Positions 39,218 through 57,142 of a DNA stretch of 64,000 nt are shown one piece after another (positions within the stretch are counted from its first letter, which is position 1; every line of letters begins with the position of its first letter). This DNA is from Armatimonadota bacterium (GTDB lineage Bacteria; Armatimonadota; UBA10988): NCBI GenBank assembly GCA_016235455.1, contig JACRKZ010000093.1, forward strand, positions 1 through 64,000, in the 5' to 3' direction. The notes beneath the pieces are model-generated. The model made no database searches and was not told the origin of the DNA. It worked only from the letters and a program-made list of their open reading frames with translations. Position numbers and translations under genes: made by a program.

Positions 39218-40618
39218 ATGCCCAACGCACACCAGCCAGCCGACAGCCCTGCCGCCCGGCCCGCCGAACGACGGCGGCGGCTCAACACGGCCCTCAGTCT
39301 GGCCGGCGTGGTGGGCGATGCGGTGGTGCTCAACCTGGCCATGGTGCTGGCCTTCTGGTTGCGCTTTCGTAGCGGCTGGCTGGCCGTGCCCAAAGGCGAG
39401 CCGCTGACGCTCGAAGCCTACTGGGGCGCCATGGTCGCGGTGACCGGCGTGTGGTGGGTGGTGTTTGGCTGGCTCGGCCTGTACCGGCCGCGTCCCTGGT
39501 CCACCGCGCTCGATGAAGCCTATCGCGTGCTCATTGCGTCGGTCGGCGTGCTGGTGGCGTCACTGGCGCTCAGCTTCCTGTATCGCTCGTCAGAGTATTC
39601 GCGGCTGACTGCCGGGCTGGCCTTCTTCCTGGCGGTGCTGCTGGCCATGACCCAACGGGCCGTGGGGCTGAGGCTGGTCAAGGGCCTGCTGCGACAGCCA
39701 GGCTATCGCACCCGCGTGGCGCTGCTAGGCACGCCGCCCGAGGTGCGCGAGGCGATTGGCGATGACCGTGAGGTGGTGCTCGAGCTGCCCGCCGATGCCG
39801 ATCATCTGGCGCAGGTGCGCTGTGGCGTCGAGCACGGCGACATCGATGAGGTCATGCTCAGACGGCACGGCTTGGACAGCAACACGCTCGTGGCACTGTT
39901 CCGCGCGTGTGAGTCGGTCGGCGCGGCAGTGGTACTTGTCGCCGACCAGGTTGACCTGCTGCTGGCGCGGGGCACGCGCGAGGACACGGCCGGAGTGCCG
40001 CTGGTCCGGGTGCGCGACGTGCCGCTGGATTCCGCGCAACGCGCCATCAAACGGCTGGCCGACCTGGTCATCGGCGGCGTGCTGCTGGTGCTGTGCGCGC
40101 CGCTGATGCTGCTGTTGGGCCATCTGGTGCGCCACGGTTCGCCGGGGCCGGCGCTGCTGCGGCAGACGCGCGTGACCGAAGGCGGGCGCCAGTTCGCGTG
40201 CCTCAAGTTCCGCTCCATGGTGGTCGACGCCGAGGCCGGCACGGGCGCCGTGTGGACCCAACGCGGCGACCCGCGCGTGACGCCCATCGGCCGGTTCTTG
40301 CGGCGCACCAGTCTCGATGAACTGCCGCAACTGATCAATATCGTGCGCGGTGAGATGAGCCTCATCGGCCCGCGGCCCGAGCGGCCGGAGTTCGTCAATC
40401 AGTTCATCGAGGAGATCCCGCGCTACGACGATCGCCATCGCATGCCCGCCGGCCTGACCGGCTGGGCGCAAGCCAATGGCGAGCGCGGTAGCGACAGCCA
40501 GATCGGCCGGCGCACGCGGTTCGATCTGTTCTACGTGGATAACTGGTCGCTGATGCTCGACCTGCAGATCCTGGTCAAGACCGCCGCCGAGGTGTTCTTC
40601 CATCGGGGAGCCTACTGA
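39218..40618 (+). CDS. polyprenyl-phosphate glycosyl-1-phosphate transferase (WbaP/WcaJ-type)
   Basis: A 466-residue membrane enzyme that starts repeat-unit assembly by moving a sugar phosphate onto undecaprenyl phosphate. Four N-terminal membrane helices (residues 25-150), a variable nucleotide-binding-like middle, and a catalytic domain are seen. The catalytic domain has KRLADLVIGGVLLVLCAPLM, then FACLKFRSMVVDAE, RRTSLDELPQLINIVRGEMS and LIGPRPERPEF, the full bacterial sugar-transferase signature. The ATG follows GGAGG. It heads a four-gene operon, one base before the next gene, and commits the cluster to a lipid-linked surface polysaccharide. Confidence 0.94.
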   Translation: MPNAHQPADSPAARPAERRRRLNTALSLAGVVGDAVVLNLAMVLAFWLRFRSGWLAVPKGEPLTLEAYWGAMVAVTGVWWVVFGWLGLYRPRPWSTALDEAYRVLIASVGVLVASLALSFLYRSSEYSRLTAGLAFFLAVLLAMTQRAVGLRLVKGLLRQPGYRTRVALLGTPPEVREAIGDDREVVLELPADADHLAQVRCGVEHGDIDEVMLRRHGLDSNTLVALFRACESVGAAVVLVADQVDLLLARGTREDTAGVPLVRVRDVPLDSAQRAIKRLADLVIGGVLLVLCAPLMLLLGHLVRHGSPGPALLRQTRVTEGGRQFACLKFRSMVVDAEAGTGAVWTQRGDPRVTPIGRFLRRTSLDELPQLINIVRGEMSLIGPRPERPEFVNQFIEEIPRYDDRHRMPAGLTGWAQANGERGSDSQIGRRTRFDLFYVDNWSLMLDLQILVKTAAEVFFHRGAY

Positions 40619-40619
40619 C

Positions 40620-42800
40620 ATGGCCAAGATTCGCTGGCGACCGGCCGATGTGGCCATGGCGGCACTGCTGCTGGCCACGGCCGTGGGCCTGGGCTGGGCT
40701 TGGCTCGACCGGCCGCTGGTGGGCAACGACATCGAGTGGCAGTACCTGCCGGGCCATGCCTGGCTGGGTCGCGCGGTGGCCGGCGGCGAACTGCCGCTGT
40801 GGTGCAGCGAGGCCGGCGCGGGCTTCCCGCTCGTGGCCGAGGGGCAGATCGGCCCGTTCTATCCCGGCAACCTGCTGCGCGTGACCAGCCTGCCACCGTG
40901 GCGGGCCTACGGCCTGACCATGCTGCTGCATCTGGCGCTGGCTGGGCTGGGCGTGTATGTGCACCTGCGGCTGCTCGGCGCGCGCCGGCTGGCGGCGCTC
41001 ATCGCCGGCATGACGTTCATGGGCTCCGGCCCCATCCTTGCGCGCGCGGTCCATCTGAACCTGTTCGAGGGCCTGTGCTGGCTGCCCTGGCTGGGCGTTG
41101 GCCTGGAGTTGGCGCTGCGTGGCCGGCGGGCGCTGGTCGGCGGTGTGGCCGTCGGCATGATGTTGCTCGCGGGGCACCAGCATCCGCTGCTGCTCTCCAC
41201 GCTGTTCGCGCCGCTCTACCTGATCGGCCGCCGTCTGGTCGGCGATGTGGACGCCAGCTGGCGCGATCTGCCGAAACGGGTCCTGACACCGTTTTTGCTG
41301 GGCGCGCTGCTGGGGGCCGCGGCCTGGCTGCCGTTGGCGGAGCTGGTGCCCCAGGGCGAGCGCGCGGCGGGGCTCACCCTCGAGTCGCGAACCGTGCTGT
41401 CGCTGGAGCCAGCGGGACTCTATGCGCTGATCGCTCCGCAGTGGTTCGGCTCGCCCCATGCGGTCGACCAGTCGCCGATGCGGCGGTTCGGGGTGGTGCT
41501 CCCGTATGAGTGGTGCCCGTATGTGGGCCTGGTGCCGCTACTGGCGCTGTGCTGGCTGGGCGGGCTTGGGCGGCGCTGGCGTTGGTTGTTTGGGCTCATG
41601 GCGCTGGGCGGGCTGCTGTTGGCCATGGGCCGCGTGCTGCCGTTCTACCCAGCGCTCAGCTACCTGCCGGGCTGGTCCATGGTGCGCGGTCCGGGCCGGC
41701 TGCTGCCGTTGTTCGCCTACGGCCTGGCGCTGCTGCTGGGCCTGACCTTGAGCGAGCACACGCTGCGCGGCGGGCCCGTAGGGCGGCCCAGGCTCTACGC
41801 CCTGCTGGCCACACTGTTTGCTGCCCTGCTCCTGGCCGGGATAGCGTGGCTCCTGGCCACGGCGCCGAGCCGCAATGGTGAGCCCTGGTGGCGTGCCGGA
41901 TCGGTCGTGGGCTGCGCCACGCTGCTGCTGGCGCTGCGGGTCAAGGCCGGGCGTGGTCGGCTGTGGCTGTCGGCCTTGGCGCTGGTCGTGGCCGCCGACC
42001 TGATCAGCGCTTTCTCGGGCTACTACGCGCTAGGCGAAACCGACTACTACGACCCACCGGTGGGCGTTGCCGCCATGGGTGACGCGCCGGTGCGGCTGAT
42101 GGCACCCGACTACCACGGCGTGCTTGGATCCAACCGCCATCTGCTCTATCCCGGCATCGCCAACGTCGGGCTGCGCAGCGTCTTGGCCACGGCACGCACC
42201 ATGCACCTCGGCGCTCTGCTGGAGAAAGGCCGTCGCGATGGCGATAGCGCGGGCCGCACCTGGCTGTCGTTGCTGCGAGTGACCGCGACGCAGTCCCTGC
42301 AGACGCCCGAGCGGTCGGTGCCGCGGCTGCGGCTGAAGCCCACCGGTGTGCCGCCGGCGCCGGATGCCTGGCTGGTGCCGCGTGTGGAACGGGCCGCTTC
42401 GGCCCAGGCCAGCCTGGAGCGCGTCTCACGGCCCGACTGGCGGCCTGACGCCGTGGCCCTTGTCGAAGGCCGCGCGCCGGCGGTGGCGGCGTCCACCCTC
42501 GGCACGATCGGTGTGGTGCGCCACCTGTCGCGCCAGCGGCTGGCCGTGGCGACCGATTGCCAGGAGGCGCAGATGCTGGTGGTTGGTCAGTCGGCCTATC
42601 CCGGCTGGCGCTGCTATCAGCAGGGCCGCTCCAGTGCGGTGCGCGTGGTGGATCACGCCCTGGCCGGGGCGGTCGTGGCGCCGGGCCGGGGCTGGGTACG
42701 GCTCGTCTTCGAGCCGACCACGCAGCGGTTGGGCCTGTTCCTGAGCTTGCTGGGACTGGCGCTGGTGGTCGCGATGTGGATCGGTGGGCGCCATGAGTGA
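40620..42800 (+). CDS. YfhO-like multi-spanning membrane protein (GT-C fold)
   Basis: A 726-residue protein with about a dozen hydrophobic helices and an extracytoplasmic C-terminal part. The N-terminal loop NDIEWQYLPGHAWLGR then GGELPLWCSEAGAGFPLVA and FYPGNLL matches the YfhO pattern of GT-C glycosyltransferases, which use lipid-linked sugars to decorate surface polymers. It starts one base after the sugar-phosphate transferase gene and overlaps the next gene by 8 bases. The probable role is addition of side sugars or modification of the polysaccharide; the donor is unknown. Confidence 0.8.
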   Translation: MAKIRWRPADVAMAALLLATAVGLGWAWLDRPLVGNDIEWQYLPGHAWLGRAVAGGELPLWCSEAGAGFPLVAEGQIGPFYPGNLLRVTSLPPWRAYGLTMLLHLALAGLGVYVHLRLLGARRLAALIAGMTFMGSGPILARAVHLNLFEGLCWLPWLGVGLELALRGRRALVGGVAVGMMLLAGHQHPLLLSTLFAPLYLIGRRLVGDVDASWRDLPKRVLTPFLLGALLGAAAWLPLAELVPQGERAAGLTLESRTVLSLEPAGLYALIAPQWFGSPHAVDQSPMRRFGVVLPYEWCPYVGLVPLLALCWLGGLGRRWRWLFGLMALGGLLLAMGRVLPFYPALSYLPGWSMVRGPGRLLPLFAYGLALLLGLTLSEHTLRGGPVGRPRLYALLATLFAALLLAGIAWLLATAPSRNGEPWWRAGSVVGCATLLLALRVKAGRGRLWLSALALVVAADLISAFSGYYALGETDYYDPPVGVAAMGDAPVRLMAPDYHGVLGSNRHLLYPGIANVGLRSVLATARTMHLGALLEKGRRDGDSAGRTWLSLLRVTATQSLQTPERSVPRLRLKPTGVPPAPDAWLVPRVERAASAQASLERVSRPDWRPDAVALVEGRAPAVAASTLGTIGVVRHLSRQRLAVATDCQEAQMLVVGQSAYPGWRCYQQGRSSAVRVVDHALAGAVVAPGRGWVRLVFEPTTQRLGLFLSLLGLALVVAMWIGGRHE

Positions 42801-44325
42801 GGGGTTGCGTCGCCGGCTGCCGGGTCTGGCGCTGTTCGGCGTGGTGATGTTGTGCTTCGTCTTCGGTACCGTCTTCGCCACGGGCGAGCGCCCCAACCAG
42901 GACGAGGGCTGGTACCTGAACGCGGCACGGCTGGTCATGGCCGGGCACACACCGTATGTCGATTTCGCCTACGTGCAGCCGCCCCTGCTGCCGTATGTCT
43001 ACGGCCTGCTCGGCGGGCATCACACCCTCGAGGCCGGCCGCGCGGTGAGCCTGTTGTTCGGCACGCTGACCGTGCTGCTGGTCGGGTTGGCCGCTTGGCG
43101 TGACGGCGCGCTGAGCGGCCTCGTCGCCGCCAGCCTGCTGGCCTTCTGCCCCTTCGCGCTGTCGCAACAGAGCATCGTCAAGACCTATGCGCTGACCAAT
43201 GCGCTGACCGCGCTGGCGCTGCTGCTGGCGCTGCGGGTGCCCGGGCGGCGCGGCCTGGTCGGCGCTTCGCTGGCCTTCGCCCTGGCGGCGTTGACCCGTA
43301 ACTCCGCCGCGGTGGTGCTGGTGGCCTGGTGGCTGTGGCTGGCCGTCGACCGTGAGCGGCGGCGCGACCTGCCGCTGGCCGTCGCCGCGTCGTGCGCGCC
43401 GCTGGTCCTGGCCTACCTGCCGTTGGGCCTGATGGACCCCGCGGCGCTGCGCTACAACCTGGTTGGCCACCATGCCGCGCAAAGCGCCGGCGGCGACCTG
43501 GGCCAGGTGCTCGTGGCAGCCATTGTCGTCGTGCGCCAGATGACCGCCGCGGCGCCGGCCATGGCCGCGCTCATCGCGGCTGGGCTGTGGCTGGAGCGGT
43601 CCACGGCCGACCGCGGGCCGCTCGATCTGGCAGCGCTGCTGTTTGGCCTGCTGGCGGCGGGCCATTTCGTTTCGGCGCATCCCTACCAGGAGTACCAGGT
43701 GCTCTGCCTGCCGGCTGGCGCGGTGCTGGCCGGGCTGTGCTGGGGGCGCATCACCGCGCGTTCGGCTGAGCGCGCCACGCTCCTGGCACTGCTGACGGCG
43801 GTGGTCGGACTGGTGCCGTTGCTGGCCATGGGGCCGACATTGTGGAAGCTGCCCGGTCTGGCCATGCCCGGTGGGATCCACGCTCCGCTACGCAAGGTCG
43901 CGGCCATCGTGCGCGCCAATGTGCCCGCCGGCCAGCCCGTGCTGACCTTCCAGAGCGACGTGGCGGTGGAAGCCGGCCGGCCGCTCACGCCCGGGCTGAC
44001 GCTCGCCTCGTTCAGTTTCGTCTCGTCAGACGACGAGGCCCGCCGGCTGCACCTGATGAGCCCCGGCTTGCTCCGCGCCGAACTCGAATCGCGTCGGCCG
44101 GCCGCGGTGGTGGTGTCGCCGGGCGATCTGGCGCGCATCTTCCGCGCGCGCTGGAAGGAAGACCGGTTGGTGCCGGCCGAGGGGCTGGACACCGATGCGC
44201 GCCGCCTGTATGAACCCATTGTCGAGGCGCTGGACACCAACTACCGGCTGGTCGGCAGTGTCGACGGCGTCGGCCAGTTCGGTGAGTCGTTCTGGGTACT
44301 GGCGCGGCGAGGAGAAGCACGGTGA
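42793..44325 (+). CDS. GT39/ArnT-like glycosyltransferase membrane protein
   Basis: A 510-residue GT-C protein with about ten membrane helices. The first outer loop ERPNQDEGWYLNAARLVMAG then TPYVDFAYVQPPLLPYV carries the acidic pair (D, E) typical of PMT/ArnT-type transferases, which take sugars from polyprenyl phosphate. The ATG at 42793 was chosen; a GTG at 42784 is possible. It overlaps the upstream gene by 8 bases and the downstream one by GTGA, so the cluster is translated as a unit. Confidence 0.85.
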   Translation: MSEGLRRRLPGLALFGVVMLCFVFGTVFATGERPNQDEGWYLNAARLVMAGHTPYVDFAYVQPPLLPYVYGLLGGHHTLEAGRAVSLLFGTLTVLLVGLAAWRDGALSGLVAASLLAFCPFALSQQSIVKTYALTNALTALALLLALRVPGRRGLVGASLAFALAALTRNSAAVVLVAWWLWLAVDRERRRDLPLAVAASCAPLVLAYLPLGLMDPAALRYNLVGHHAAQSAGGDLGQVLVAAIVVVRQMTAAAPAMAALIAAGLWLERSTADRGPLDLAALLFGLLAAGHFVSAHPYQEYQVLCLPAGAVLAGLCWGRITARSAERATLLALLTAVVGLVPLLAMGPTLWKLPGLAMPGGIHAPLRKVAAIVRANVPAGQPVLTFQSDVAVEAGRPLTPGLTLASFSFVSSDDEARRLHLMSPGLLRAELESRRPAAVVVSPGDLARIFRARWKEDRLVPAEGLDTDARRLYEPIVEALDTNYRLVGSVDGVGQFGESFWVLARRGEAR

Positions 44326-45410
44326 AGCTGGCGCTGGTCCATGAATGGCTGACCAACATGGCGGGCAGTGAGCGCGTGCTGGGCGCCATGGCCGAGCTGT
44401 GGCCCGCCGCGCCGGTCTACACCAGCGTCTACGCGCCCGAGTCACTGCCGCCTGAGTTCGCGCCCGGCTCCATGGACGTGCGCTGCTCGTGGCTCCAGCA
44501 GGTGCCCGGCGCCAACCGCCACTGGCGCGCGCTGCTGCCGTTCATGCCCAGCGCGTTCGAGAGCTTTGACCTCAGCGGCTACGATACCGTCATCACCAAC
44601 TGCCATCAGTGCGCCAAGGGCGTGCTGACCCCGGTGCATACGCGGCACATCTGCTACTGCTACACGCCGATCCGCTATGCCTGGGAGATGCCGCACCGCT
44701 ATCTGGCCGAGGCCGGGCCGCTCGCACGCCTGCTGCTGCCGCCCGTGCTGCGGCGGCTGCGCGTCTGGGACTACGTTGCTGCCCAGCGGCCGGACCACTA
44801 CATCGCCATCTCGCGGTTCGTCGGTCGGCGCATCGAGAAGCACTACCGCCGCGCCGTGGATGCCGTCATCTACCCGCCGGTGGTCACCGCTGACTACGCG
44901 CCGGCAGCCACGCGCGAGGACTTCTACCTGGTGGTCTCGCGGCTGGTGGGCTACAAGCAGGTCGACCTGGCTGCCGCGGCGTTCACCGAGCTGGGCCTGC
45001 CGCTCAAGATCGTCGGCGTCGGCCCCGATGAGGCGCGCGTGCGCGCCGCCGCCGGGCCGACCGTCGAATTGCTGGGCTGGCGCGACGACGCCGCCGTGCG
45101 CGACCTCTACAGCCGCGCGCGCGGCTTGGTCTTCTGCGGCGTCGAGGATTTCGGTCTGACACCCGTGGAAGCTCAGGCCAGCGGCTGCCCGGTGGTCGCG
45201 TTGGGCCGCGGCGGCACGTTGGAGACCGTGGTCGAGGACGAAACCGGCCTGTTCTTCGCCGAGCCGACCGTCACCGCGCTGGCCGACGCCGTGCGGCGCT
45301 TTGCGGCGCGCGACTGGTCGGTCGAGGCCTGCCGAGCCAACGCGCGCCGCTTCGATGTCGCGCTGTTCAAGCAGCAGTTGGCCGACTTCGTGGCGGGCAC
45401 TGCTGGCTGA
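44322..45410 (+). CDS. GT4-family glycosyltransferase
   Basis: A 362-residue cytoplasmic glycosyltransferase (group 1, GT-B). The N-terminal LALVHEWLTNMAGSERVLG is the glycine-rich acceptor loop. The C-terminal donor half has YLVVSRLVGYKQVDLAAAAF, then the E-x7-E motif in EDFGLTPVEAQASGCPVVAL. Such enzymes move nucleotide-sugar residues such as mannose or glucose onto lipid-linked chains. It starts with GTG inside the previous stop codon after GAGGAGAAG. It is the last gene of the polysaccharide operon and ends 8 bases from the convergent STN-paralogue operon. Confidence 0.94.
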   Translation: MKLALVHEWLTNMAGSERVLGAMAELWPAAPVYTSVYAPESLPPEFAPGSMDVRCSWLQQVPGANRHWRALLPFMPSAFESFDLSGYDTVITNCHQCAKGVLTPVHTRHICYCYTPIRYAWEMPHRYLAEAGPLARLLLPPVLRRLRVWDYVAAQRPDHYIAISRFVGRRIEKHYRRAVDAVIYPPVVTADYAPAATREDFYLVVSRLVGYKQVDLAAAAFTELGLPLKIVGVGPDEARVRAAAGPTVELLGWRDDAAVRDLYSRARGLVFCGVEDFGLTPVEAQASGCPVVALGRGGTLETVVEDETGLFFAEPTVTALADAVRRFAARDWSVEACRANARRFDVALFKQQLADFVAGTAG

Positions 45411-45418
45411 GCGGGCTG

Positions 45419-46963
45419 CTACTGCTGCTCCACCCGCGGCAACTCGACATCGGTGATGGCGAACGGCAGGCTGCCGACCTTCGTGCCGGGGTCAATCAGG
45501 CCGACCAACATGCGCGGCACCTCCGCCGAGGCGCTGATGCTGTAGAGCACGCGCGCCACCACGCGCTTGTCGCCGTCGCGGCTCTGCTGCAGGTTGACCT
45601 GCGACATCTCCATGCGCCTCCGGCCAGACTTTGTCTCCAGTACGACCACGGGAACGAGTGGGTGACTGGCCGGGCTGCCCATGCCGCCCATGCCCGGCAT
45701 GCCCATACCGGGTATTCCGCCAGGCATGCCACCCGGCATCCCCATACCAGGCATGCCACCCGGCATCCCCATGCCCGGCACGCCACCGGGCATATCCATG
45801 CCGGGCGGCGGCCCTTGGGCCAGGATGGTCACTCGCGGCTCGTCTTGCGCGGCGGGCACAGCGCCGAGGCCCGGCGGGCCGGGCGGCAGGACGGGGCCCA
45901 TGCCGCCGCCGGGCATCCCCGGACCCATGCCGCCGGGCGGCATGCCCGGGCCCATGCCGCCGCCCGGCATGCCCGGGCCCATGCCGCCGCCCGGCATGCC
46001 CGGGCCCATGCCGCCGCGCATGTTTTGGCCGCGGCCGCCACCGTTGGCCTGCGTGGCGCGGATGAGCTTGGTGAGTGCGTCGGTGAGCGGCATGGAGATG
46101 CTGAGTTCGGCTGTCCAGGTCTTGGGTGTGCCCTCGTATTCGGCACAGTGGACCAACGTCACGTCGATGTCGTGCTCCGACTGTTGCTGGTTGTCCTGAG
46201 CCAGGTCGCCGAACTCGAAGATGACTTCCTGCGCCTCGGGCAGCACAGCCAGCGTGCCGGTCAGTTCGTCCAAGTGCTGCAGCGGCGCCTTGGGCAACTG
46301 GAAATCGAGGCTGAAGCTATCGCGGTACTGCGCGCCGCGCTGGATGGGCAGGTACTCGAGGCCCTGCGTGGCGCGGACCTTGGCGTCGAGCACGGTGCCG
46401 TCGAACTTGGCCCCTCCGGTGAGCCCAGCGCCGAGCAGCGTCCGCGACGCCAGTTCGCTGTCGGTCTCGAGTTGGAGCATCGTGGTCAGCGCCTGTCGGC
46501 CGACCGCCCGGCCGCCGATAGTGATGCTACTGGCATCTTCCACGGTGATGTTGGTCAGAGCCACGCGGTAGGCGCCGACTTTGACCGTCGGTCGCTCGGG
46601 TTCGTGCTGCTGCGGACCCATGCGCGAGCCGATCATCAGGCTGGTGCCCATGTTCTGCACCACCAGGCCCTGCTCGCGCAACATGGCCAGCACCGCGCGC
46701 AGCGACTGACCTTCGGCCTTCAGGCTGATCTTGGGGTCGACGCGGTCCAGCAACTCCTCGGGGATCGCATCGATGTTTCCGCCCGGCGCCATGGTGCCGA
46801 TAGCCACACCCGTCTGCGCGGCCAGCGCCGAGGCCACCGCACTCAATCGCGTGTCCATCGCGTTGATGGTCACCGGTGGGTCGATGACGCTCAGTGGTGC
46901 GGCCGGGGCGGCCGCCGTCATCGCCAGAGCGGCCAGGGCCGCCGCATACACGCGATTGGTCAT
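45419..46963 (-). CDS. secreted STN-domain paralogue 5 (GMP-repeat linker)
   Basis: A 514-residue exported protein, last of five tandem paralogues. A signal peptide (VYAAALAALAMTAAAPAA) is followed by an STN-like module (PLSVIDPPVTINAMDTRLSA), a second short module (KISLKAEGQSLRAVLAMLRE), and a beta-rich middle with EVIFEFGDLAQDNQQQSEHD. A low-complexity Gly/Met/Pro linker (repeats of GPGMPGGGM) leads to a C-terminal domain ending LVGLIDPGTKVGSLPFAITD. STN domains occur at the N-terminus of secretins and TonB receptors, but no barrel follows. The start has GGAGGATAAGG before it, two bases after the upstream stop. The function is unknown. Confidence 0.85.
   Translation of the reverse strand: MTNRVYAAALAALAMTAAAPAAPLSVIDPPVTINAMDTRLSAVASALAAQTGVAIGTMAPGGNIDAIPEELLDRVDPKISLKAEGQSLRAVLAMLREQGLVVQNMGTSLMIGSRMGPQQHEPERPTVKVGAYRVALTNITVEDASSITIGGRAVGRQALTTMLQLETDSELASRTLLGAGLTGGAKFDGTVLDAKVRATQGLEYLPIQRGAQYRDSFSLDFQLPKAPLQHLDELTGTLAVLPEAQEVIFEFGDLAQDNQQQSEHDIDVTLVHCAEYEGTPKTWTAELSISMPLTDALTKLIRATQANGGGRGQNMRGGMGPGMPGGGMGPGMPGGGMGPGMPPGGMGPGMPGGGMGPVLPPGPPGLGAVPAAQDEPRVTILAQGPPPGMDMPGGVPGMGMPGGMPGMGMPGGMPGGIPGMGMPGMGGMGSPASHPLVPVVVLETKSGRRRMEMSQVNLQQSRDGDKRVVARVLYSISASAEVPRMLVGLIDPGTKVGSLPFAITDVELPRVEQQ
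45900..46007. repeat. four tandem 27-bp repeats
   Basis: Four head-to-tail 27-base units starting at each ATGCCGCCG (45900, 45927, 45954, 45981); the last two are identical. On the minus strand they encode GPGMPGGGM units in the linker of the STN paralogue. A related, less regular array lies at about 45680-45810. Copy number could vary by slippage. Confidence 0.9.
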
Positions 46964-46965
46964 CC

Positions 46966-48420
46966 TTATCCTCCGTCGGGCGCCTCCTTGCCGGAAGCAC
47001 CCAGCACTGTCTCGTTTGGCCCCAGGGGCGCGGGCTCGCCCAGGAACACGTCGCCGAACCGCACCGTCTGGTAGTCCACCGCGCGGCCGAAGTCCACCAG
47101 GCCCACACGCAGCTTCGTCGGCTGCTCACGGATGCCCACGGCGCGGGCCACGTAGCGCAGCGTCAGGCGCGCCGTCGCCGGGTCAAGGCTGATCTCGCGC
47201 AGCCCGACCGCCATCGTGCGGCGCCCATGCTCGCCTTCCAGCAGCACCACCGGCGCCAGGGGGTCGGTGGCTGTGTCGACCCAGGCGCCTACTGGCACCA
47301 CCCGCCGCCGCGAGCCGTCGTTGGCGCGGCCCGCGAACGGCATCGGCCACATGCTGACGCTGTCCCATACGGAGTCGACCCCGCCAATGCCGGTTACACC
47401 CGGCGAGATGACAGTTTGCGGCAGGCTTGGCTGATCGGAGTCGATGGGCATCTGCAGCGCGCTCAGTCGCGGCCCGGCCGAGCCGGAGACCGCCACACGC
47501 GACAGCAGGTGCTGCAGCGGGCCGCTCATGGGACGCACCACGGTCAGCATGGCCTCGACCGCTTCCAGCCGGCGGTCATCGACCAGTCTGTGCAGGACTA
47601 CCGACGCGCCCGGCTGCTCGGCGCGCTGTTCGGGCATGCCGTACGGATCGAACGTGAACACGCGCTCCTCGGCATCGCGGCACCAGGCCACCAGCAACGT
47701 CTGGTAGCCGATGCGGGTCAAGGCCGCGCCCGACCACGGCACGACATACTCGAGCGTGCCATCGGCGCCCAACGGCTCGAACGGCCGCGTGGGCGGTCCA
47801 TAGCCCGTGGCCATGACGTCGCCGACGCGGAAGACGGACTCCACGCGTGCGCCAAGCAGCGCGCGCGACAGCAACTCCGTCTCGGCCCGCACCCGGTAGC
47901 GCAGCCGCGTGACGCGCCGGGTCAGGCTCTGAGCACCGCTCTCGAGTTCGCGTTCGGTAGTCGTGGCAGCACTGCTGAGCGTGACGCGATAGGGGTAGTC
48001 AGCTTCGGCAGCCGGCGCCAGATCGCCCAGCGTTGCGGCACCGCTGGCCGCTCCGCCGGAGATGGCGATGCTGTCGCCGCGCGGCTCGACATCGTAGCCC
48101 TGGCCGGCGAGCAGGTTGAGCACCGCGCGCAGGCCGACATCCTTGACCGACAATGACAGCCGGGGCACCAGATCGGCATCGCTGCCCTGCGCCGGGCCTG
48201 GCCGCCGGGTCCACGGCGAGTCGCCGCGGCCGACCATGCGGCCAAAGTCGAGCGCATCGGGTACGACCACACCGTAGCCAGTCTGCTCCTGGATCTCGGT
48301 CGCTAACCGGGTGAACGGCACCTCGTCCAGCGTGAAGGTCAGGCGTGGATCGAGCACGCTGTCGGCGGCTGACGCGACCGCCGGCAGCAGGCAGAGAAGT
48401 GAGCACAGCCATGTGCGCAT
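46966..48420 (-). CDS. secreted STN-domain paralogue 4 (no repeat linker)
   Basis: A 484-residue exported protein. A signal peptide (MRTWLCSLLCLLPAVASA) is followed by the STN-like module SVLDPRLTFTLDEVPFTRLA, a second one (LSLSVKDVGLRAVLNLLAGQ), a beta-rich middle domain (RAETELLSRALLGARVESVF), and the family C-terminus RVGLVDFGRAVDYQTVRFGD. Unlike its sisters it lacks the Gly/Pro linker. The start at 48420 was chosen for the signal peptide and GGGGGTG site. It lies 107 bases after paralogue 3 and 2 bases before paralogue 5. The function is unknown. Confidence 0.83.
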   Translation of the reverse strand: MRTWLCSLLCLLPAVASAADSVLDPRLTFTLDEVPFTRLATEIQEQTGYGVVVPDALDFGRMVGRGDSPWTRRPGPAQGSDADLVPRLSLSVKDVGLRAVLNLLAGQGYDVEPRGDSIAISGGAASGAATLGDLAPAAEADYPYRVTLSSAATTTERELESGAQSLTRRVTRLRYRVRAETELLSRALLGARVESVFRVGDVMATGYGPPTRPFEPLGADGTLEYVVPWSGAALTRIGYQTLLVAWCRDAEERVFTFDPYGMPEQRAEQPGASVVLHRLVDDRRLEAVEAMLTVVRPMSGPLQHLLSRVAVSGSAGPRLSALQMPIDSDQPSLPQTVISPGVTGIGGVDSVWDSVSMWPMPFAGRANDGSRRRVVPVGAWVDTATDPLAPVVLLEGEHGRRTMAVGLREISLDPATARLTLRYVARAVGIREQPTKLRVGLVDFGRAVDYQTVRFGDVFLGEPAPLGPNETVLGASGKEAPDGG

Positions 48421-48527
48421 GGGCACCCCCGGATCGTGGCACGGTCGGGCCGCGGCGCGGGTGCCGAGGCTCACCGAGGGTCACCCATTCGACAGCCGAC
48501 CTGATCCTCCTCTGTGTCGACGACCGG

Positions 48528-50087
48528 CTAGCGCGCGTCGGCCGCCGGCAGGTCCACGGCCGTGAACGCGAAGCCGACATTGCTCGTGCGCTGGCCGTAG
48601 TCCACCAGCCCGATGAGGAGGCGCTGCACCGGCTCGGCCGGCGCGGGGCCCTGGGCGGTGCAAGTCACGACGATGCGGTCGCCCGGAGCGGCGGCGCCTG
48701 GCGCGCCACCGCCGCCGCGGCTCTGCTGGCGCAGCACCAGCGGATAGCGGCCCTTGGCGGTCTCCATCACGATCATCGGCGCCAGGCCGTTGATCAGACC
48801 GGATCCGACGAGGACCGAGTCGAACGCCGGCTGGACCAGGCCGCCGCCGGGCAGCCCGAGCACTGGCGGGTTGGCCGGCATGATCTGCACGCCGACGGGC
48901 GGCGGCGGCGGCGCGTCTGCTGGCGGGCCTTCGACCTGCCTCATCACGCCGTTCGGGTCCATCTCGAACCGCTGCGTGACGCCGTTGCGCGTAATGGTCA
49001 CGTTGCCCTGGCGCTGGACCTGCACGTTCGGCTGCGGCTGGCCCAACCCGCCGGGCAGGCCCGGCACGGCGACCGCCGGCGGGATGGCCGCCGGCGGCCC
49101 GATCTGGAGTTGGATAGGCGCATCGTGCAGCCGGAACGCCTCGGGACCCGCCATCCCGCCCATGCCCAGCCCGCGCATCGGTCGCCCCTGTTGCTCATTG
49201 GCCTCGGTCTTGGGGTAGGAGACGGTGACCTGGGCCTCGACGGGCAGTGGCTGGCCGACGGGGCTGAAGCCGCCTTGGGTCTGGCCGAAGCGCACCAGCG
49301 TGACGTCGATGTCTCCCTCGGTCTGTTGCTGGCCGGTCTTGTCCAGGTCGCCGAACTCGAGCGCGACCTCCTTGGCGTCGGGGTAGACGCGTAGCGAGCC
49401 GGTCAGCGAGTCGATGGTCGACACGGGCTTGATGGGCAGCGCGAAGATCAGGCTCAGGTTGTCGGTCAGCCCCACGCCCGGCAGCGGCAGCCAGCCGGTC
49501 TGGGTGCGGGGTGCCTGCGCGGCGAGTTCTGCGCCGTCCAGCTTGAGCTGGTAGTCGGCGCCATAGCCGATCAGCGCGCGACTGGCGACCTCCGTGTCGC
49601 AGTCCAGCGTCAGCTCGACGCGCGTCTGGCGGCGTGACGGCATGGGGCCACCGAAGCGGCGGTACTCGACGTTCTCGGTGGTCAGGCTCTGGAGCTGCAC
49701 GCGGTACGCGCCGACCTTGGCTTCCGGCCGTGGCTCCGCGGCTCGGGCGTTGGGCACACCGATGACCTGCACCTGCCCACCGACCATCTGCACCGTAACG
49801 CCCAGGGCCGTCAGTCGGCGCAGCACCTGCCGCAACGTCTCGTCCTTGACCGACAGGGAGACGTTGGGGTCGAGCCGGCGCCGATGCTCCTCGGGCATGT
49901 TGCCCCATTGGACGCGGGCCATCGGCGAGGCGACCCCCACACCCGACCCGCGCGACAGCGTGTCGAGCACCTGGCTGAACGGGACTTCGCGCAGGTCGAA
50001 GGTGAGACGCGGATCGAGTACGCTGAGCGGCGCCGCGTGCGCGCGCAGAGCAATCCCCAAAAGGCAGAGGGCCAGGCAACGTCCCAT
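48528..50087 (-). CDS. secreted STN-domain paralogue 3
   Basis: A 519-residue exported protein. A signal peptide (MGRCLALCLLGIALRAHA) is followed by the STN-like module LSVLDPRLTFDLREVPFSQV, a second module (NVSLSVKDETLRQVLRRLTA), and a middle domain with CDTEVASRALIGYGADYQLK and EVALEFGDLDKTGQQQTEGD. The latter is nearly identical to the matching block of paralogue 5. A Pro/Gly linker and the C-terminal LLIGLVDYGQRTSNVGFAFT follow. A GGGAG site precedes the ATG. Paralogues 3 and 5 are the closest pair. The function is unknown. Confidence 0.85.
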   Translation of the reverse strand: MGRCLALCLLGIALRAHAAPLSVLDPRLTFDLREVPFSQVLDTLSRGSGVGVASPMARVQWGNMPEEHRRRLDPNVSLSVKDETLRQVLRRLTALGVTVQMVGGQVQVIGVPNARAAEPRPEAKVGAYRVQLQSLTTENVEYRRFGGPMPSRRQTRVELTLDCDTEVASRALIGYGADYQLKLDGAELAAQAPRTQTGWLPLPGVGLTDNLSLIFALPIKPVSTIDSLTGSLRVYPDAKEVALEFGDLDKTGQQQTEGDIDVTLVRFGQTQGGFSPVGQPLPVEAQVTVSYPKTEANEQQGRPMRGLGMGGMAGPEAFRLHDAPIQLQIGPPAAIPPAVAVPGLPGGLGQPQPNVQVQRQGNVTITRNGVTQRFEMDPNGVMRQVEGPPADAPPPPPVGVQIMPANPPVLGLPGGGLVQPAFDSVLVGSGLINGLAPMIVMETAKGRYPLVLRQQSRGGGGAPGAAAPGDRIVVTCTAQGPAPAEPVQRLLIGLVDYGQRTSNVGFAFTAVDLPAADAR

Positions 50088-50131
50088 GGATGACTCCCGG
50101 TGACCGTTGCACTGGCCCTCTGTCGAGAGCC

Positions 50132-50149
50132 GGCTCTCTTGCGAGAGCC
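50132..50149 (-). promoter_or_regulatory. intercistronic hairpin between paralogues 2 and 3
   Basis: Stem GGCTCTC/GAGAGCC with a four-base loop, just after the paralogue 2 stop. An alternative palindrome, GAGAGCCGGCTCTC (50125-50138), overlaps it. No T-run follows, so it may attenuate or stabilise the long transcript. Confidence 0.45.
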
Positions 50150-50154
50150 AGGCG

Positions 50155-51726
50155 CTACTGGAGCGGTACGTTCGGCAGAGCGAACGGCACGTTGGCCGTC
50201 TTGTCGCCCGGGTCGATCACACCGACCAGAACGGACTTCGCCTCGGCGGCGGCACCCGTCAGCGGCACGCGCATGGTCACTGTGAGAGTGTTACCCGCGA
50301 ACCGCACCGTGCGTTCACACGACTTGGGGTCGATGCCGATGCGCTTGCCCGGCGCCGTCTCCACGGCCACGGCCTGCAGCAGCCAGCGCGCCACGGCCGC
50401 CATGTCCAGCCGCACCGGCTGGTCGCCGATGAAGGCCATGCCGTCGGCGCCAAAGCCGCCACGACCACCGAAGCCACCAAAGCCACCGAACCCGCCGGGC
50501 CCGCCGCCACCACCTTGGCGACCTTGCCGGCCGGGGTCAGGCTGACCGGGTTGGCCAGGCTGACCGGGCTGACCGGGCGCCTGGGCGAACTGCACGCCGC
50601 CGTCGGCCGGCGTGGCCAGCGCGAACCGCAGGCCCGGCTCAGCCTGAGCCTGACCGCCAGCGGCCGGGGCTCGTCCCGGGGCACCGGGCGCACCCGGCGC
50701 GGCACCGGGCGCGCCCGGGCCGCCACCAGGACCGCCAGGACCACCTGGGCCACCACCGCGACCGCCGCCGAAGCCGCCGCCACCGAACATGCCGGCACCG
50801 GTCTCGATGCGCAGCGGGCCGTTGGCATTGGCGAACACGCCGGACAGACGCTGGGCCATCTCAGGACCGAGCGTGCGCTTGAGCGTCAGGTTGACCGTCT
50901 TCACGTTGCCGGCGGTCTGCACGCCAACCAAGGTCATGTCGATGCCGGCATCCGTCTGCGTCTGGTTGGCCGCGGCCAGATCGTCGAAGACGAAGCTGCG
51001 CTCGACGCAGTCGGTCAGGACGATGAGCTGGCCACTGACCGCGTAGGAGGTCAGGGGTGTGGTCGGCAACTGGTAGGCCAGATCGAACAGGCCGTTGCGC
51101 GGCGCGATGGGCTGCGGCGTGTTATTACCGCCACGGCCGAAGCCGCGCTGGCGCATCTCCGCCGGCTGCCCGTTGATGGCCGACTGCACGGTACCATCGA
51201 TGCCCATGACCGCCAGCAGCGCCGAGGGCGAGGTGGGGGCCACGGCCAACTCGAAGGTCAGGCCGGAGAACGAGTTCGGGTCATTGGGGCCGAACCCGGT
51301 GGTCAGCATGTTCACCGCGCGGTAGTTGTTGAGCACCAGCGCCCACTTGTCGGCCTTGGCCACGGGCCGCGTATCGACCAGCGGCGCATTGGCCGGCGCC
51401 GCCACGGTCGACGGCGTGAGCTCCCAGGACATCTTCGCCGCCTGGTAGCTGAGCGTGCCGCCGACCTGCACGGCCAGCGCCGCCAGCACCTGCGACAGCG
51501 GGTTGCCCGCCGCGATGATGGTCACGGTCGTCGTGGCCGGCTTGGCGTCGGCCGGCAGTTCGACCTTCACGCCGCCCGCGGCCGACAACTGCGTCAGTGC
51601 CTCGGCTAGCGCGACGCCCTTGAGATCCAGCGTGATCGGCGGGTCGTAGACCGAAGTGGCGGCCGCCCACAGCGGGCTCGTCGCCAGCGCCAACACGCAC
51701 ACCAGTGTGAAGAGCTTGCGCGTCAT
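50155..51726 (-). CDS. secreted STN-domain paralogue 2 (Gly/Pro-rich linker)
   Basis: A 523-residue exported protein. A signal peptide (MTRKLFTLVCVLALATSPLWA) is followed by the STN-like module TSVYDPPITLDLKGVALAEA, a second one (TTVTIIAAGNPLSQVLAALA), a beta-rich middle (DCVERSFVFDDLAAANQTQT), a long Gly/Pro/Phe linker with GQPGQPGQP and GGFGGFGG runs, and the C-terminal LVGVIDPGDKTANVPFALPN. Its start overlaps the paralogue 1 stop (ATGA) after a near-perfect AAGGAGGTG site. The function is unknown. Confidence 0.85.
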   Translation of the reverse strand: MTRKLFTLVCVLALATSPLWAAATSVYDPPITLDLKGVALAEALTQLSAAGGVKVELPADAKPATTTVTIIAAGNPLSQVLAALAVQVGGTLSYQAAKMSWELTPSTVAAPANAPLVDTRPVAKADKWALVLNNYRAVNMLTTGFGPNDPNSFSGLTFELAVAPTSPSALLAVMGIDGTVQSAINGQPAEMRQRGFGRGGNNTPQPIAPRNGLFDLAYQLPTTPLTSYAVSGQLIVLTDCVERSFVFDDLAAANQTQTDAGIDMTLVGVQTAGNVKTVNLTLKRTLGPEMAQRLSGVFANANGPLRIETGAGMFGGGGFGGGRGGGPGGPGGPGGGPGAPGAAPGAPGAPGRAPAAGGQAQAEPGLRFALATPADGGVQFAQAPGQPGQPGQPGQPDPGRQGRQGGGGGPGGFGGFGGFGGRGGFGADGMAFIGDQPVRLDMAAVARWLLQAVAVETAPGKRIGIDPKSCERTVRFAGNTLTVTMRVPLTGAAAEAKSVLVGVIDPGDKTANVPFALPNVPLQ

Positions 51727-53300
51727 TGCGCACCTCCTTGGCCGCCCTGGCCACCTTCAGCACCACCGCGGCCGCCGCGGCCGCCACGGCCACCACGGCC
51801 ACCACCGCCGTCACCACCAGCTCCGCCAGCGCCAGCGCCCGGCTGACCGGGCTGACCGGGCTGACCGGGCTGGCCGGGCTGGCCTCCAGGGCCGCCAAAG
51901 CCGCCCGGCCCGCCAGCGTTGTTGGGTCGAGGCGCGGGGATGGCGATGTCATTGACGATGACGATCTGGTCCTTGGCGGACACACCGGGGTCGAGCACGG
52001 AGACCACCAGGCGCTGCGCGCCCTGCACGGCGGTCGGCCAGGTGGCGACCAGATGCGTGGTCAGCGTATCGCCCTTGAGCGTGAACTCGCGCTGCTGCGA
52101 CGAGGTGCGGGCATAGGCGAAGCCGGCCGGCGCCTTGGAGAAGGCTACCACGGGCACAATCCAGGCCGGAAGGGTGCGCATGCCGCCCATACCACCCATG
52201 CCGCCGCGTCCGCCGCCGCCGTTGGTGTCCAGCACCGAGCCGACGTCGATCTTGCCGTCCGCCGCGACGGGCAGCGCCTTGAGCTGCTCAACCGCCGTGG
52301 GACCCAGCTTGGTGGTGACGGTCAGATCGGCTGTGGCGGGCTGGTCGCCGGCCGCGGCGGTGAAACTGTTGAGCGTCACTTCCACGTTGCCGGCGGCCTG
52401 CTTGGCCCCAGCCTGCGCGGGGTCGAGCGTGACCAGGCGCTCGGCGATCTGGTCATAGAGCTTGAGGCTCAGGTTGACCTGGCGCACGGCCTTGATTTCC
52501 GGCGCGCCGGCCGGCAGCTCGAACGGCAGATCGAAGTTGCCGTTGGCCGGATTGGTGGCCAGCAGTTGGCCCGACAAGCCGGCGACCGGCTTGAAGGTGA
52601 CCGTGGCTTCGGGCAGCACGGTGGCTTCAACCGACTCGACCGAAATGCCGGCGACCTTGGCGTCGGCCAGGGCCGTCGCGCCGTCCACAGCGACCTCCAG
52701 GGTCAGCGTGGCGTTGGGCTGGTGCGCCGGACGCGGCCCGAAGAAGTGCTCCGTCGTGCGGGCGTAGCGCAGATTGTTGACCATGATGCCCAGGTCACCC
52801 ACCACGCGAAACGGCGGCTGGGACTGGTTGCGGCCCATGGCCGGCAGCACGTAGTAGGTGCCGCCCACGCGCTGCACGCGCTGGTTGTACTGGCGCGCCA
52901 GTACGTCCAGCACGTAGCCCAGCGGAAAGCCGTTGGCCTGGGTGGTGATCTGCGGATCGAGCATGTCCAGGAACCGGTTGCCGCCCTGGCCACCGGCGCC
53001 CGGCTGACCGGGCTGGCCACCGGCACCGGGCTGGCCCGGCTGGCCCGGCTGACCACCAGGCATGCGACCGGCCATCATGCGCACCGCGGCCTGGTCGAAG
53101 TTGTAACCGGTCTGCGCGCCGATGAACTTGAGCACCTCGGACAGCCGCTGCCCCGACGCATTGATGGTCACCAGCGGCTCGACCAGGCTGATCTGGGCCG
53201 GGGCCTGCTGGGCAGGGCTCGGCCCAGCGGCCAGCGCTACGCTCAGCGCGGGCGCGGCCCAGAGCCAGCCGCGGCTCCGGCACCGAAAACGTGTACCCAT
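51723..53300 (-). CDS. secreted STN-domain paralogue 1 (GRGG tail)
   Basis: A 525-residue exported protein, first gene of the five-paralogue operon. A signal peptide (GWLWAAPALSVALAAGPSPA) is followed by the STN-like module LVEPLVTINASGQRLSEVLK, split by a GQPGQPGQ insert from a second module (PQITTQANGFPLGYVLDVLA), the beta-rich middle (RLVTLDPAQAGAKQAAGNVE), the C-terminal LVVSVLDPGVSAKDQIVIVN, and a final Gly/Arg tail (GRGGRGGRGG) unique to this copy. The ATG at 53300 has GGGAG nine bases upstream; an ATG at 53309 abuts that site. The function is unknown. Confidence 0.84.
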   Translation of the reverse strand: MGTRFRCRSRGWLWAAPALSVALAAGPSPAQQAPAQISLVEPLVTINASGQRLSEVLKFIGAQTGYNFDQAAVRMMAGRMPGGQPGQPGQPGAGGQPGQPGAGGQGGNRFLDMLDPQITTQANGFPLGYVLDVLARQYNQRVQRVGGTYYVLPAMGRNQSQPPFRVVGDLGIMVNNLRYARTTEHFFGPRPAHQPNATLTLEVAVDGATALADAKVAGISVESVEATVLPEATVTFKPVAGLSGQLLATNPANGNFDLPFELPAGAPEIKAVRQVNLSLKLYDQIAERLVTLDPAQAGAKQAAGNVEVTLNSFTAAAGDQPATADLTVTTKLGPTAVEQLKALPVAADGKIDVGSVLDTNGGGGRGGMGGMGGMRTLPAWIVPVVAFSKAPAGFAYARTSSQQREFTLKGDTLTTHLVATWPTAVQGAQRLVVSVLDPGVSAKDQIVIVNDIAIPAPRPNNAGGPGGFGGPGGQPGQPGQPGQPGQPGAGAGGAGGDGGGGRGGRGGRGGRGGAEGGQGGQGGAQ

Positions 53301-53461
53301 GTTGGTCATCTCCCTCAGACGATGGGGCCATAGACGCTGGCCCAGACGGAAGGTTCACTCAAACGTCACAGTGCCCATGGATCTTGTCGGGCAGGGCGTC
53401 AGACCAGCGGATCCGGGCCATTTCGCGGGCCCCACGGCCATGTGCTGACCCGTCCCGCCTC

Positions 53462-54977: not shown

Positions 54978-55817
54978 TCACCTGTGCCGCTCGGCCGCGC
55001 CGCGCAGCCTGTCGAGCACCTCGTCGTCGTCGGGCACGCGACCGGGCACCTGGCCCAGGCGTACGCCGGGCTTGGTGGCGCCGTGGAAATCCGAGCCGAC
55101 GGTGATGGCCAGCCGCCAGCGCGTGGCCAGGTCGCGGTACAGCCGACGTTGGCGCGGCGTGTGCTGCGGGTAGTACACCTCCAGCCCGTCGAGTCCTCTG
55201 GCCACCCAGCGGCTCAGCGTGTCGGCCAGATCGGCCGGGCTAAGCCGCGTCTGGCAGGGATGCGCCAACACCGCCGCGCCGCCGGCCGCGTGGACCAGTT
55301 CGATGGCGTCGCCGGGCGACAGGTCCTCGCGCGGCACATACAGCGGCGAATCGTCCGCCAGGTAGCGCTCGAAGGCCTGGTAGATGCTGCTCACCGCGCC
55401 CAACTCCACCATGGCCTGAGCCATGTGCGGGCGGCCGATCTGCTCGCCGCCGGCCAGTCGGTCGAGCTGTTCCATCGTAACGGCGAAGCCGGCGGCGTTG
55501 AGCCGCTCGACCATGGTCACGTTGCGCACGCGGCGCGCGGCCTGCAGTTGGGCCAGCACGGTCCGCAGCCCAGCGTGGTGCGGGTCGATGTGGTAGCCCA
55601 GCAGGTGCAGGTTGCCCCGCGCCCAGGTCAGGCTGAGCTCCACGCCGACGATGATCTCGACATCCTGGCGATCGTCGGGCAGCCGGTCGTAGGCGTCGAC
55701 GTTGTCGTGGTCGGTGATGGCCAGCGCGCGCAGGCCCGCGGCGGCGGCGGCGGCCACCAGTTCCGCCGGCGTCAGCGTGCCGTCGGAGCAGACGGTATGG
55801 CTATGCAGATCGATCAT
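54978..55817 (-). CDS. PHP-domain phosphoesterase
   Basis: A 279-residue metal-dependent phosphoesterase of the PHP family (YciV/RnaAM-like). Metal sites are plain: MIDLHSHTVCSDGTLTP, LAITDHDNVDAY, GVELSLTW, AVLAHPCQTRL and VGSDFHGATKPGV. Characterised relatives remove the 3' phosphate from pAp-type nucleotides or act as 5'-3' exonucleases on short RNA. Its ATG overlaps the murC stop (ATGA), so the two are coupled; the ThiF-like gene follows 11 bases on. Confidence 0.93.
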   Translation of the reverse strand: MIDLHSHTVCSDGTLTPAELVAAAAAAGLRALAITDHDNVDAYDRLPDDRQDVEIIVGVELSLTWARGNLHLLGYHIDPHHAGLRTVLAQLQAARRVRNVTMVERLNAAGFAVTMEQLDRLAGGEQIGRPHMAQAMVELGAVSSIYQAFERYLADDSPLYVPREDLSPGDAIELVHAAGGAAVLAHPCQTRLSPADLADTLSRWVARGLDGLEVYYPQHTPRQRRLYRDLATRWRLAITVGSDFHGATKPGVRLGQVPGRVPDDDEVLDRLRGAAERHR

Positions 55818-57142
55818 GCTCGCTCTGTCCGCACCCACTCGGCCAAGCGATGCGCCAGCGCGGTCACGTCGCCGGCGCCCATGACGAGCCATGTCTCGCG
55901 GTCGCCGGCGGCGGCGGTCAGGCGCGCGAAGGCGTCGTCGTGCCCACCCACGTAGGACACGCCGGCCGCCTCGCCACCCGCCACGGCGGCCACCTGCGCG
56001 GAGTCGACACCCAGCGTGTCATGCTCGCGCGCGGCGTAGATGTCGCACAGCAGCGTCTCGTCGGCGGGGTCGAAGACCCCGGCATACTCGGCCAGCAGCG
56101 CCCTGGTGCGCGCGAACTGGTGCGGTTCATAGACCACTCTAAGGCGTCGGCCCAGTTGCGTCGCCGCCAGCACCGTGGCGCGCACCTCGGCCGGATGGTG
56201 AGCATAGTCGTCGACCACCACGATGCCGCCGCTATCGACCAGCCGCTCGAAGCGCCGTGCCGTGCCGCCGAACCGCCCGATCAACTCCGCGGCACGGGCC
56301 AACGGCACGCCGGCCTCGACCGCGGCGGCGACCGCGGCGGCGGCGTTCTGGGCGTTGTGGCGGCCCACGGCGGCCAGTTCCACCGTCACGCTCTCGCCTT
56401 CGGGCGAGGTCAGCGCAAAGCGTTGCCCGACGGCGCTGGGCACGGGCTCGCCGGTGCGCCAATCGGCCCCGGCGGCGAAGCCGTAGGTCTGCACGCGGCA
56501 CACCGCCGCGTCGGCCAGGGCGGCGGCGGTGGGGCAGTCGGCGCCCAGCAGCAGCAGCCCGTCGGGCCGCACCTGGCTGACGAACTGGCGGAACGTCGCG
56601 ACGTAATCGGCCAGGTCCACGTAGATGTCGGGGTGGTCGTTCTCGACGTTGGTGACGATGGCCGTGCGCGGTTCGAGCGCCAGGAAGGCCCGCGCATACT
56701 CGTCGGCCTCGACCACCACCCACTCGCCGGCGCCGACGCGGCAGTTGGTGCCATAGTTGCCCACCAGGCTGCCGACCAGGAAGGTCGGGTCGAGCCCGGC
56801 CTCGACCAGGATGACCGAGGCCATGCCTGACGTGGTGGTCTTGCCATGCGTGCCGGCCACGCACAGGCCGCTCTTGGGATTGACCGCGGCGCCGAGCACA
56901 TCCGCGCGACTCCGAATCGGCAGGCCGCGTTGTCGCGCGGCAGTCAACTCGGGATTCTCGGCCGGCACAGCGGCCGAAACGGCCAGCCAATCGACGTCGT
57001 CGGCCAGGTTGGCCGCGTCGTGTCCGATGTAGACGGTGATGCCTTCGGCGGCCAGCGCGCGCGTGTAGTCGGAGGCGGCCTGGTCCGAGCCGGAGACGCG
57101 ATGTCCCTGGGCGGTGAGCAGCCGGGCGATGGCGCTCATCAT
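55814..57142 (-). CDS. murC: UDP-N-acetylmuramate-L-alanine ligase, N-terminally truncated
   Basis: A 442-residue Mur ligase that adds L-Ala to UDP-MurNAc in peptidoglycan synthesis. The body is intact: SAIARLLTAQGHRVSGSD, the ATP loop VAGTHGKTTTSGMASVI, VEADEYARAFLALEP, VVDDYAHHPAEVRAT and YEPHQFARTRALL. The usual N-terminal strand (HFIGIGGxG) is missing. The frame upstream reads AWTAGC just before MMSAIARLL and then hits a stop, so roughly the first 15 codons and the ribosome site are absent. The upstream gene runs into this region in another frame. A deletion or misassembly at about 57,145 is likely, and the protein as given may not fold. Confidence 0.88.
   Translation of the reverse strand: MMSAIARLLTAQGHRVSGSDQAASDYTRALAAEGITVYIGHDAANLADDVDWLAVSAAVPAENPELTAARQRGLPIRSRADVLGAAVNPKSGLCVAGTHGKTTTSGMASVILVEAGLDPTFLVGSLVGNYGTNCRVGAGEWVVVEADEYARAFLALEPRTAIVTNVENDHPDIYVDLADYVATFRQFVSQVRPDGLLLLGADCPTAAALADAAVCRVQTYGFAAGADWRTGEPVPSAVGQRFALTSPEGESVTVELAAVGRHNAQNAAAAVAAAVEAGVPLARAAELIGRFGGTARRFERLVDSGGIVVVDDYAHHPAEVRATVLAATQLGRRLRVVYEPHQFARTRALLAEYAGVFDPADETLLCDIYAAREHDTLGVDSAQVAAVAGGEAAGVSYVGGHDDAFARLTAAAGDRETWLVMGAGDVTALAHRLAEWVRTERA

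Follow-up and report, generated by a model that had tools for sequence, protein, structure and literature searches.

Five tandem STN-domain paralogs of an Armatimonadota bacterium belong to an unnamed family with paired Ig-like sandwiches

Introduction

STN/N0 domains are familiar chiefly from secretins and TonB receptors, in which they form the docking ends. What, then, might five exported STN proteins do when they are encoded side by side and none of them continues into a channel? The question is raised by positions 45419 to 53300 of the DNA analyzed here, a stretch of 64,000 nucleotides from an Armatimonadota bacterium (assembly GCA_016235455.1, contig JACRKZ010000093.1, positions 1 to 64,000; "the window"), in which five co-directional open reading frames (ORFs) on the minus strand, called A to E in their order of transcription, encode such proteins. 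A sequence-only reading had put them forward as a candidate undescribed system. Here we show that A to E are, as modeled, members of an unnamed family with one STN/N0 domain and two immunoglobulin (Ig)-like beta-sandwiches; the family is new and lineage-restricted, while its kind, barrel-less N0 proteins, is already known. We further propose, with confidence that does not go beyond an even balance, that the five act jointly as exported subunits of a hetero-oligomer in the periplasm or at the cell surface, with A and B partnering each other directly; its assembly, location, and purpose are what we infer.

Results

Five divergent paralogs with a common architecture

The array comprises the following features (residue ranges are from AlphaFold2 [AF2] models).

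51723 to 53300, minus strand: gene A, 525 residues; signal peptide, STN domain with a GQP-rich insert between its halves, two Ig-like sandwiches, and a Gly/Pro/Arg-rich C-terminal tail
51723 to 51726, minus strand: ATGA, the stop-start overlap of genes A and B
50155 to 51726, minus strand: gene B, 523 residues; signal peptide, STN domain, Ig-like domain 1, and Ig-like domain 2 carrying a long Gly/Pro-rich insert
50088 to 50154, minus strand: B-C intergenic gap, with two successive 7-bp hairpins (50114-50149) within an outer stem
48528 to 50087, minus strand: gene C, 519 residues, the most typical member; STN domain at ~26-109, sandwich 1 at ~122-245, sandwich 2 at ~253-292 plus 438-512, and a disordered linker at ~304-432
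46966 to 48420, minus strand: gene D, 484 residues; architecture as in C (AF2), with a short linker that is not Gly-rich
45419 to 46963, minus strand: gene E, 514 residues; architecture as in C, with a linker of Gly/Pro/Met repeats
45686 to 46017, minus strand: 27-bp DNA tandem repeats that encode the Met/Gly/Pro linker of gene E

The five ORFs thus lie where the sequence-only reading had placed them, within its size range of 484 to 525 residues. Of two candidate start codons of gene A, the ATG at 53300 and the ATG at 53309, the former is the better one, lying 9 nt after GGGAG. The genes had been described as overlapping or nearly touching, which is true for two of the four junctions, A/B with its overlap and D/E with a spacing of 2 nt, but not for B/C and C/D, whose gaps measure 67 nt and ~107 nt.

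The proteins are divergent paralogs (about 18-37% identity) that a single profile aligns along their length. With the linkers removed, BLASTP paired C with E (36% identity, E=9e-59), C with D (28%, 4e-20), B with E (33%, 9e-15), and A with E (26%, 1e-9). All five begin with the expected signal peptide, which, read by eye from the sequence, is type-I-like in each case, ends in an AxA-type site, and carries no lipobox cysteine. Gly/Pro/Met-rich linkers of differing repeat type were found in A, B, C, and E and not in D, in agreement with the four that had been counted, and the family alignment and tree described below support the proposed gene duplication with linker diversification.

AF2 models of C and D, built from an alignment of only six sequences (mean predicted local distance difference test values of 66 and 68; predicted template modeling scores of 0.63 and 0.68), agreed on the order of a signal helix, a single STN fold with two beta-alpha-beta halves, sandwich 1, and sandwich 2, the last interrupted by the disordered Gly/Pro-rich linker. 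These models recast several motifs of the sequence-only reading. Its second STN-like repeat turned out to be the second beta-alpha-beta half of the single STN/N0 fold. The STN module is indeed shared, but the literal string S-V-L-D-P-R-L-T-F occurs only in C and D. The beta-rich middle and the C-terminal motif together make up the two Ig-like sandwiches. The EFGDL..QQQ motif, literal only in C and E, replaced by FDDLAAANQTQ in B, and degenerate in A and D, marks the seam between them, and the C-terminal motif corresponds to the penultimate strand of the second sandwich.

No entry of Pfam, NCBIfam, PADLOC, or PDB covered the full length of A to E. Consistent with the claim that no secretin or receptor barrel is present, searches of Pfam, NCBIfam, and PDB assigned none of the five to a secretin, barrel, or pilus family and gave no strong full-length match to one. 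NCBIfam gave nothing significant, the PDB sequence search gave weak chance or low-complexity matches, and the anti-phage defense models of PADLOC gave no match at E<=0.1. The Pfam STN domain was matched by C only among the five, below threshold (26.2 versus a curated cut-off of 28.4 bits, E=6.8e-6).

In structural searches with Foldseek, where no match reached E 0.001, the STN part of the C model resembled the PupA signaling domain (2a02, prob 0.60), and the top match of that model was YjhA (3cfu, DUF4352; prob 0.82, TMt 0.41) for a sandwich. The D model matched mostly Fab light chains at prob <=0.3, with YjhA/DUF4352 not among the matches listed, which limits the meaning to two Ig-like domains. 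DUF4352 (PF11611) shares with A to E an extracytoplasmic Ig-like beta-sandwich, but as an identity for the sandwiches it is not supported: it was absent from the Pfam scans of every family member scanned, and the profile-profile comparison with hhalign gave a probability of 0.7-4%. Because of this failed test, we term the sandwiches only Ig-like. An internal duplication relating sandwich 1 to sandwich 2 was likewise not shown (hhalign, 8% over 14 columns).

In a MAFFT alignment of 25 homologs, the STN-S1-S2 order (S1 and S2 being the two sandwiches) was common from end to end, with the linker at one fixed site in S2 and missing from the majority of distant relatives. The 22-row family alignment contained zero invariant columns, and the only nearly invariant positions were Gly and Pro, which argues against an enzyme. 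All five proteins matched the family profile (alignment A6) across nearly the full extent of the profile, either as one match or as two divided at the linker. As A to E are themselves among the rows of A6, the independent support comes from full-length matches outside its rows, for example in G024, G003 (contig C3), G000 (contig C122), and G269, where G numbers denote genomes of the phylum and G000 is the genome of the window.

Relation to secretins and TonB-dependent transducers

The STN part of the family profile matched the N-terminal domain of a genuine secretin encoded in the window's genome, a 649-residue ORF on contig C18 that also carries the secretin domain (E=3.9e-13). Together with the STN topology in the AF2 models, this indicates that the N-terminal domain of the family is homologous to the STN/N0 domain of secretins (PF00263). 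Beyond it the two part ways: neither A to E nor the relatives in G002 and G003 match PF00263, and the models place Ig-like sandwiches there instead. The shared N-terminal domain would suit an origin from secretins or receptors that degenerated and shed the barrel. However, no secretin or barrel remnant was detected, and in many lineages the family retains, from end to end, a two-sandwich C-terminal half of its own, so that we regard such an origin as scarcely credible.

The same homology would allow A to E to serve as secretin accessories that dock through STN/N0 onto a secretin N0 ring, or replace it, and so extend a type II or type IV pilus machine within the periplasm. The genome does encode three secretins above the family cut-off, one of them the homolog just described. 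Yet the array and the secretin genes lie on different contigs, the neighbors of the array included no identified pilus or secretion gene, and the full-length family occurs in only about 14 genomes compared with STN-only matches in >240. This role appears quite improbable.

A separate STN protein of 491 residues in the genome (locus L007, 403-1878, contig C4) matches the secretin domain weakly and in part (E=1.2e-4, below the cut-off) and is possibly a degenerate secretin.

The likeness to PupA raises cell-surface signaling, in which the STN domain would contact a FecR-type anti-sigma factor and a ligand on the Ig-like domains would alter the activity of an extracytoplasmic function (ECF) sigma factor. 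TonB-dependent transducers (PupA, PupB, and FpvA) have the same STN signaling-domain fold, and the genome carries one FecR and one TonB receptor. In contrast to these transducers, A to E lack a plug and a beta-barrel (no match to PF00593), ending after ~500 residues with two beta-sandwiches. They also have no FecR or ECF neighbors: no sigma or anti-sigma gene was found near the array or at the profiled loci of the relatives, and the sole FecR is encoded on another contig (C1). An ECF-promoter-like string, TGAACC-N15-CGTCTA, is located ~30 bases upstream of gene A (53331-53357, minus strand), as signaling would predict, but it occurs three times in the genome versus once in the reversed control and defines no regulon, so we rejected it as an ECF-type promoter. 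Signaling is therefore improbable in our view. A scan for sigma-70 promoters and terminators gave none above chance.

A fusion of A and B in the sister species

The strongest pointer to joint action came from G001, a sister species in the same genus, which encodes an 803-residue fusion of the form STN-S1-S2-STN-S1-S2, in the order of A and B here. The second module lacks its own signal peptide. In reciprocal BLASTP, the N-terminal half matched A best (5e-12) and the C-terminal half matched B best (2e-19). A maximum-likelihood tree of 32 linker-free sequences agreed with this assignment: the N-terminal half joined A with support of 99/97, the C-terminal half joined B (93/87), and C, D, and E formed a clade of their own (98/96). 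The whole group, A to E with both halves of the fusion and the single copies of G002 (contig C466) and G003 (contig C81), was supported at 100/97.

In approximately unbiased (AU) tests, uniting the two halves of the fusion, as an internal duplication would require, or swapping their partners was disfavored at p 0.03-0.04; as these tests on the fusion were chosen once the tree had been seen and the values are near 0.05, they count as support rather than proof. A clade of A to E alone was rejected (p=0.006). The five therefore do not form one species-specific clade.

Both genomes are drafts (G001 80% and the window's genome 93% complete), but the fusion is free of Ns and of internal stops; we consider an assembly error unlikely. 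Judged from the sequences, the simplest reading would be that A and B were already separate neighbors before the two species of the genus split. Their fusion would then have followed in G001, and the set of C, D, and E would either have expanded on the G000 side or have disappeared from G001.

The B-C gap, which divides the pair fused in G001 from C-D-E, carries the twin hairpins. In a single-sequence prediction, the RNA fold of 50084-50160 had a z of -3.3, and 0 of 200 shuffles were equally stable. This element could tune the relative expression of A-B and C-D-E, as far as a predicted fold can suggest. The other family loci retrieved showed no such hairpins. One of the two has a GCAA tetraloop.

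Distribution in the phylum

The architecture is not unique to the locus. Full-length or near-full-length profile matches, often in tandem, were found in at least about 14 of 291 genomes of the phylum (G000 to G004, G010, G013, G024, G254, G259, G264, G269, G270, and G276), a lower bound, since at most six candidates per genome were scored; most other genomes matched over the STN part only. The class is represented by five genomes in the collection searched. Tandem arrays recur in several lineages, with several adjacent copies in G254 (contigs C267, C125, and C462) and four ORFs in G010 (contig C177), but the exact five-gene array was found only in the window's genome among those examined: G001 retains the A-B fusion alone, and G002 (C466) and G003 (C81) have a single copy each. 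The idea of a distinct, conserved five-gene system is not supported on these grounds. A three-row profile search of the genome contigs returned one locus, L038, apparently on the same contig as the single copy of G003. A tblastn search with C, aimed at a plasmid-borne origin, gave nothing, and none of the papers in the collection searched joined STN with Armatimonadetes, Planctomycetes, or duplication.

Pairs were found in G002, in G003, and, as a second tandem pair, in the window's genome. They represent one locus kept in three genera, in which a ribokinase gene (61-64% identical between genomes) is followed by two family genes on the same strand:

L107, 4986-8207 (G000, contig C122): ribokinase-STN-STN
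L035, 3-3129 (G002, contig C150): ribokinase-STN-STN
L108, 8702-11849 (G003, contig C3): ribokinase-STN-STN

In G000 and G003, a divergent gene (44% identity), which is TPR-CHAT in G000, is located past this locus. Two-module proteins are not confined to G001: the arrayed contig of G010 encodes one of 966 residues with two STN domains, and its contig C257 one of ~976 residues with one clear STN domain and two sandwich pairs.

This distribution bears on a further explanation, a lineage-specific expansion of independent secreted proteins, soluble in the periplasm or at the surface and either ligand-binding or adhesive, that do not assemble with one another and in which duplication and linker change diversify binding. 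High divergence among the copies, linkers of differing repeat type, the single-copy relatives in G002 and G003, and the sporadic spread through the phylum are all as such an expansion would have it. The fusion in the order of A and B, the two-module proteins of G010, and the pair kept in three genera speak against it, and we consider independent action possible but rather unlikely.

Elsewhere in the phylum, six successive co-directional ORFs of G047 (locus L034, contig C117, 4845-17022) encode secreted proteins of ~635-674 residues with an STN-like N-terminus (QDKKSRDLEAEM...). They resemble A to E in being secreted STN paralogs in one array, but these ~650-residue proteins are homologous to the family over the STN part only, and the remainder looks like a different, unnamed family, which makes this a second and longer type of STN array. 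In G254, an ORF of contig C462 (locus L078, 3338-4168) opens as a protein of the STN family and, by eye, ends like sigma-70 region 4. Since there is little sense in joining a sigma factor to an exported protein, the ORF is likely a chimeric assembly or a recombination.

Genes around the array

The neighbors of the array encode a glycosyltransferase, a small protein with no family match, ThiF, PHP, a Mur ligase, and a CarboxypepD_reg protein. Two transferases, a Bac_transf sugar transferase (39218-40618, plus strand) and a group-1 glycosyltransferase (44322-45410, plus strand), converge on the array, and the two ORFs that separate them read like multi-membrane proteins; the region 39218-45410 (plus strand) is possibly a surface-polysaccharide cluster. 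On the other side, an ORF at 56232-60371 (minus strand) with six CarboxypepD_reg stretches enters the Mur ligase gene (55814-57142, minus strand) by ~900 bases in another frame. The Mur ligase ORF matches its own family only from profile position 12, as if its start were cut short, and a frameshift near 57143 is possible.

Discussion

Our results assign A to E to one family and leave the question of how its members would work. In the hetero-oligomer that we propose, the proteins would be Sec-exported and soluble, their genes having arisen by tandem duplication. The array is probably co-transcribed, and A/B and D/E are likely to be translationally coupled. The STN domains would pair with those of neighboring subunits or with a different partner in the envelope, stacking or ligand binding would fall to the Ig-like domains, and the disordered Gly/Pro/Met loops, emerging from one fixed point in the second Ig-like domain, would serve as flexible spacers. 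The whole might act as a scaffold, in adhesion, or in capturing a ligand. Joint action is favored by the fusion of neighboring paralogs, the stop-start overlap, the tight D/E spacing, and the repeated tandem or fused organization. The multi-subunit assembly suggested earlier thus gains backing from the A-B fusion and the two-module proteins of G010, although the assembly itself is something that we infer.

Several points weigh against this proposal. The support for joining the fusion to B (93/87) is under a strict threshold, and both halves of the fusion are long branches. The two wider gaps and the B-C hairpins could mean that A-B and C-D-E are expressed separately. As most relatives carry either a single copy or a pair, a fixed set of five is not a requirement, and no conserved neighbor points toward a known machine.

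Precedents exist for contacts through such domains. VirB7XAC2622 of the Xanthomonas type IV system oligomerizes through its N0 domain (PMC3093366). The C-terminal domain of DotD, from the Legionella type IVB system, resembles the secretin N0 domain, and the core complex cannot form without a short segment of the protein (PMC2951367). PupB and PupR associate via STN-containing domains (PMC7186176). Like A to E, DotD and VirB7XAC2622 are exported N0/STN-type proteins without a barrel of their own, and they join multimeric outer-membrane core complexes (PMC2951367, PMC3093366). They differ in being smaller lipoproteins with a C-terminal N0 domain and disordered N-terminal segments, whereas A to E are non-lipidated proteins of 484-525 residues with an N-terminal STN domain and two Ig-like domains. 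In addition, no type IV secretion gene was found among the neighbors of A to E that were examined.

More tentatively still, and with some doubt on our part, A to E may be the distinct subunits of an undescribed, lineage-restricted hetero-oligomeric machine of the envelope with neither secretin nor barrel, held together by STN-STN and Ig-Ig contacts, that evolved by duplication of one module and by shuffling, fusion, or extension of its copies.

The family shows the STN module used alone with paired Ig-like domains, without a channel, and repeatedly duplicated in a poorly cultured phylum. The profile of alignment A6 allows the recognition of proteins that are unnamed in the curated libraries tested, and the A-B fusion turns the observation of tandem paralogs into a specific, testable protein pair.

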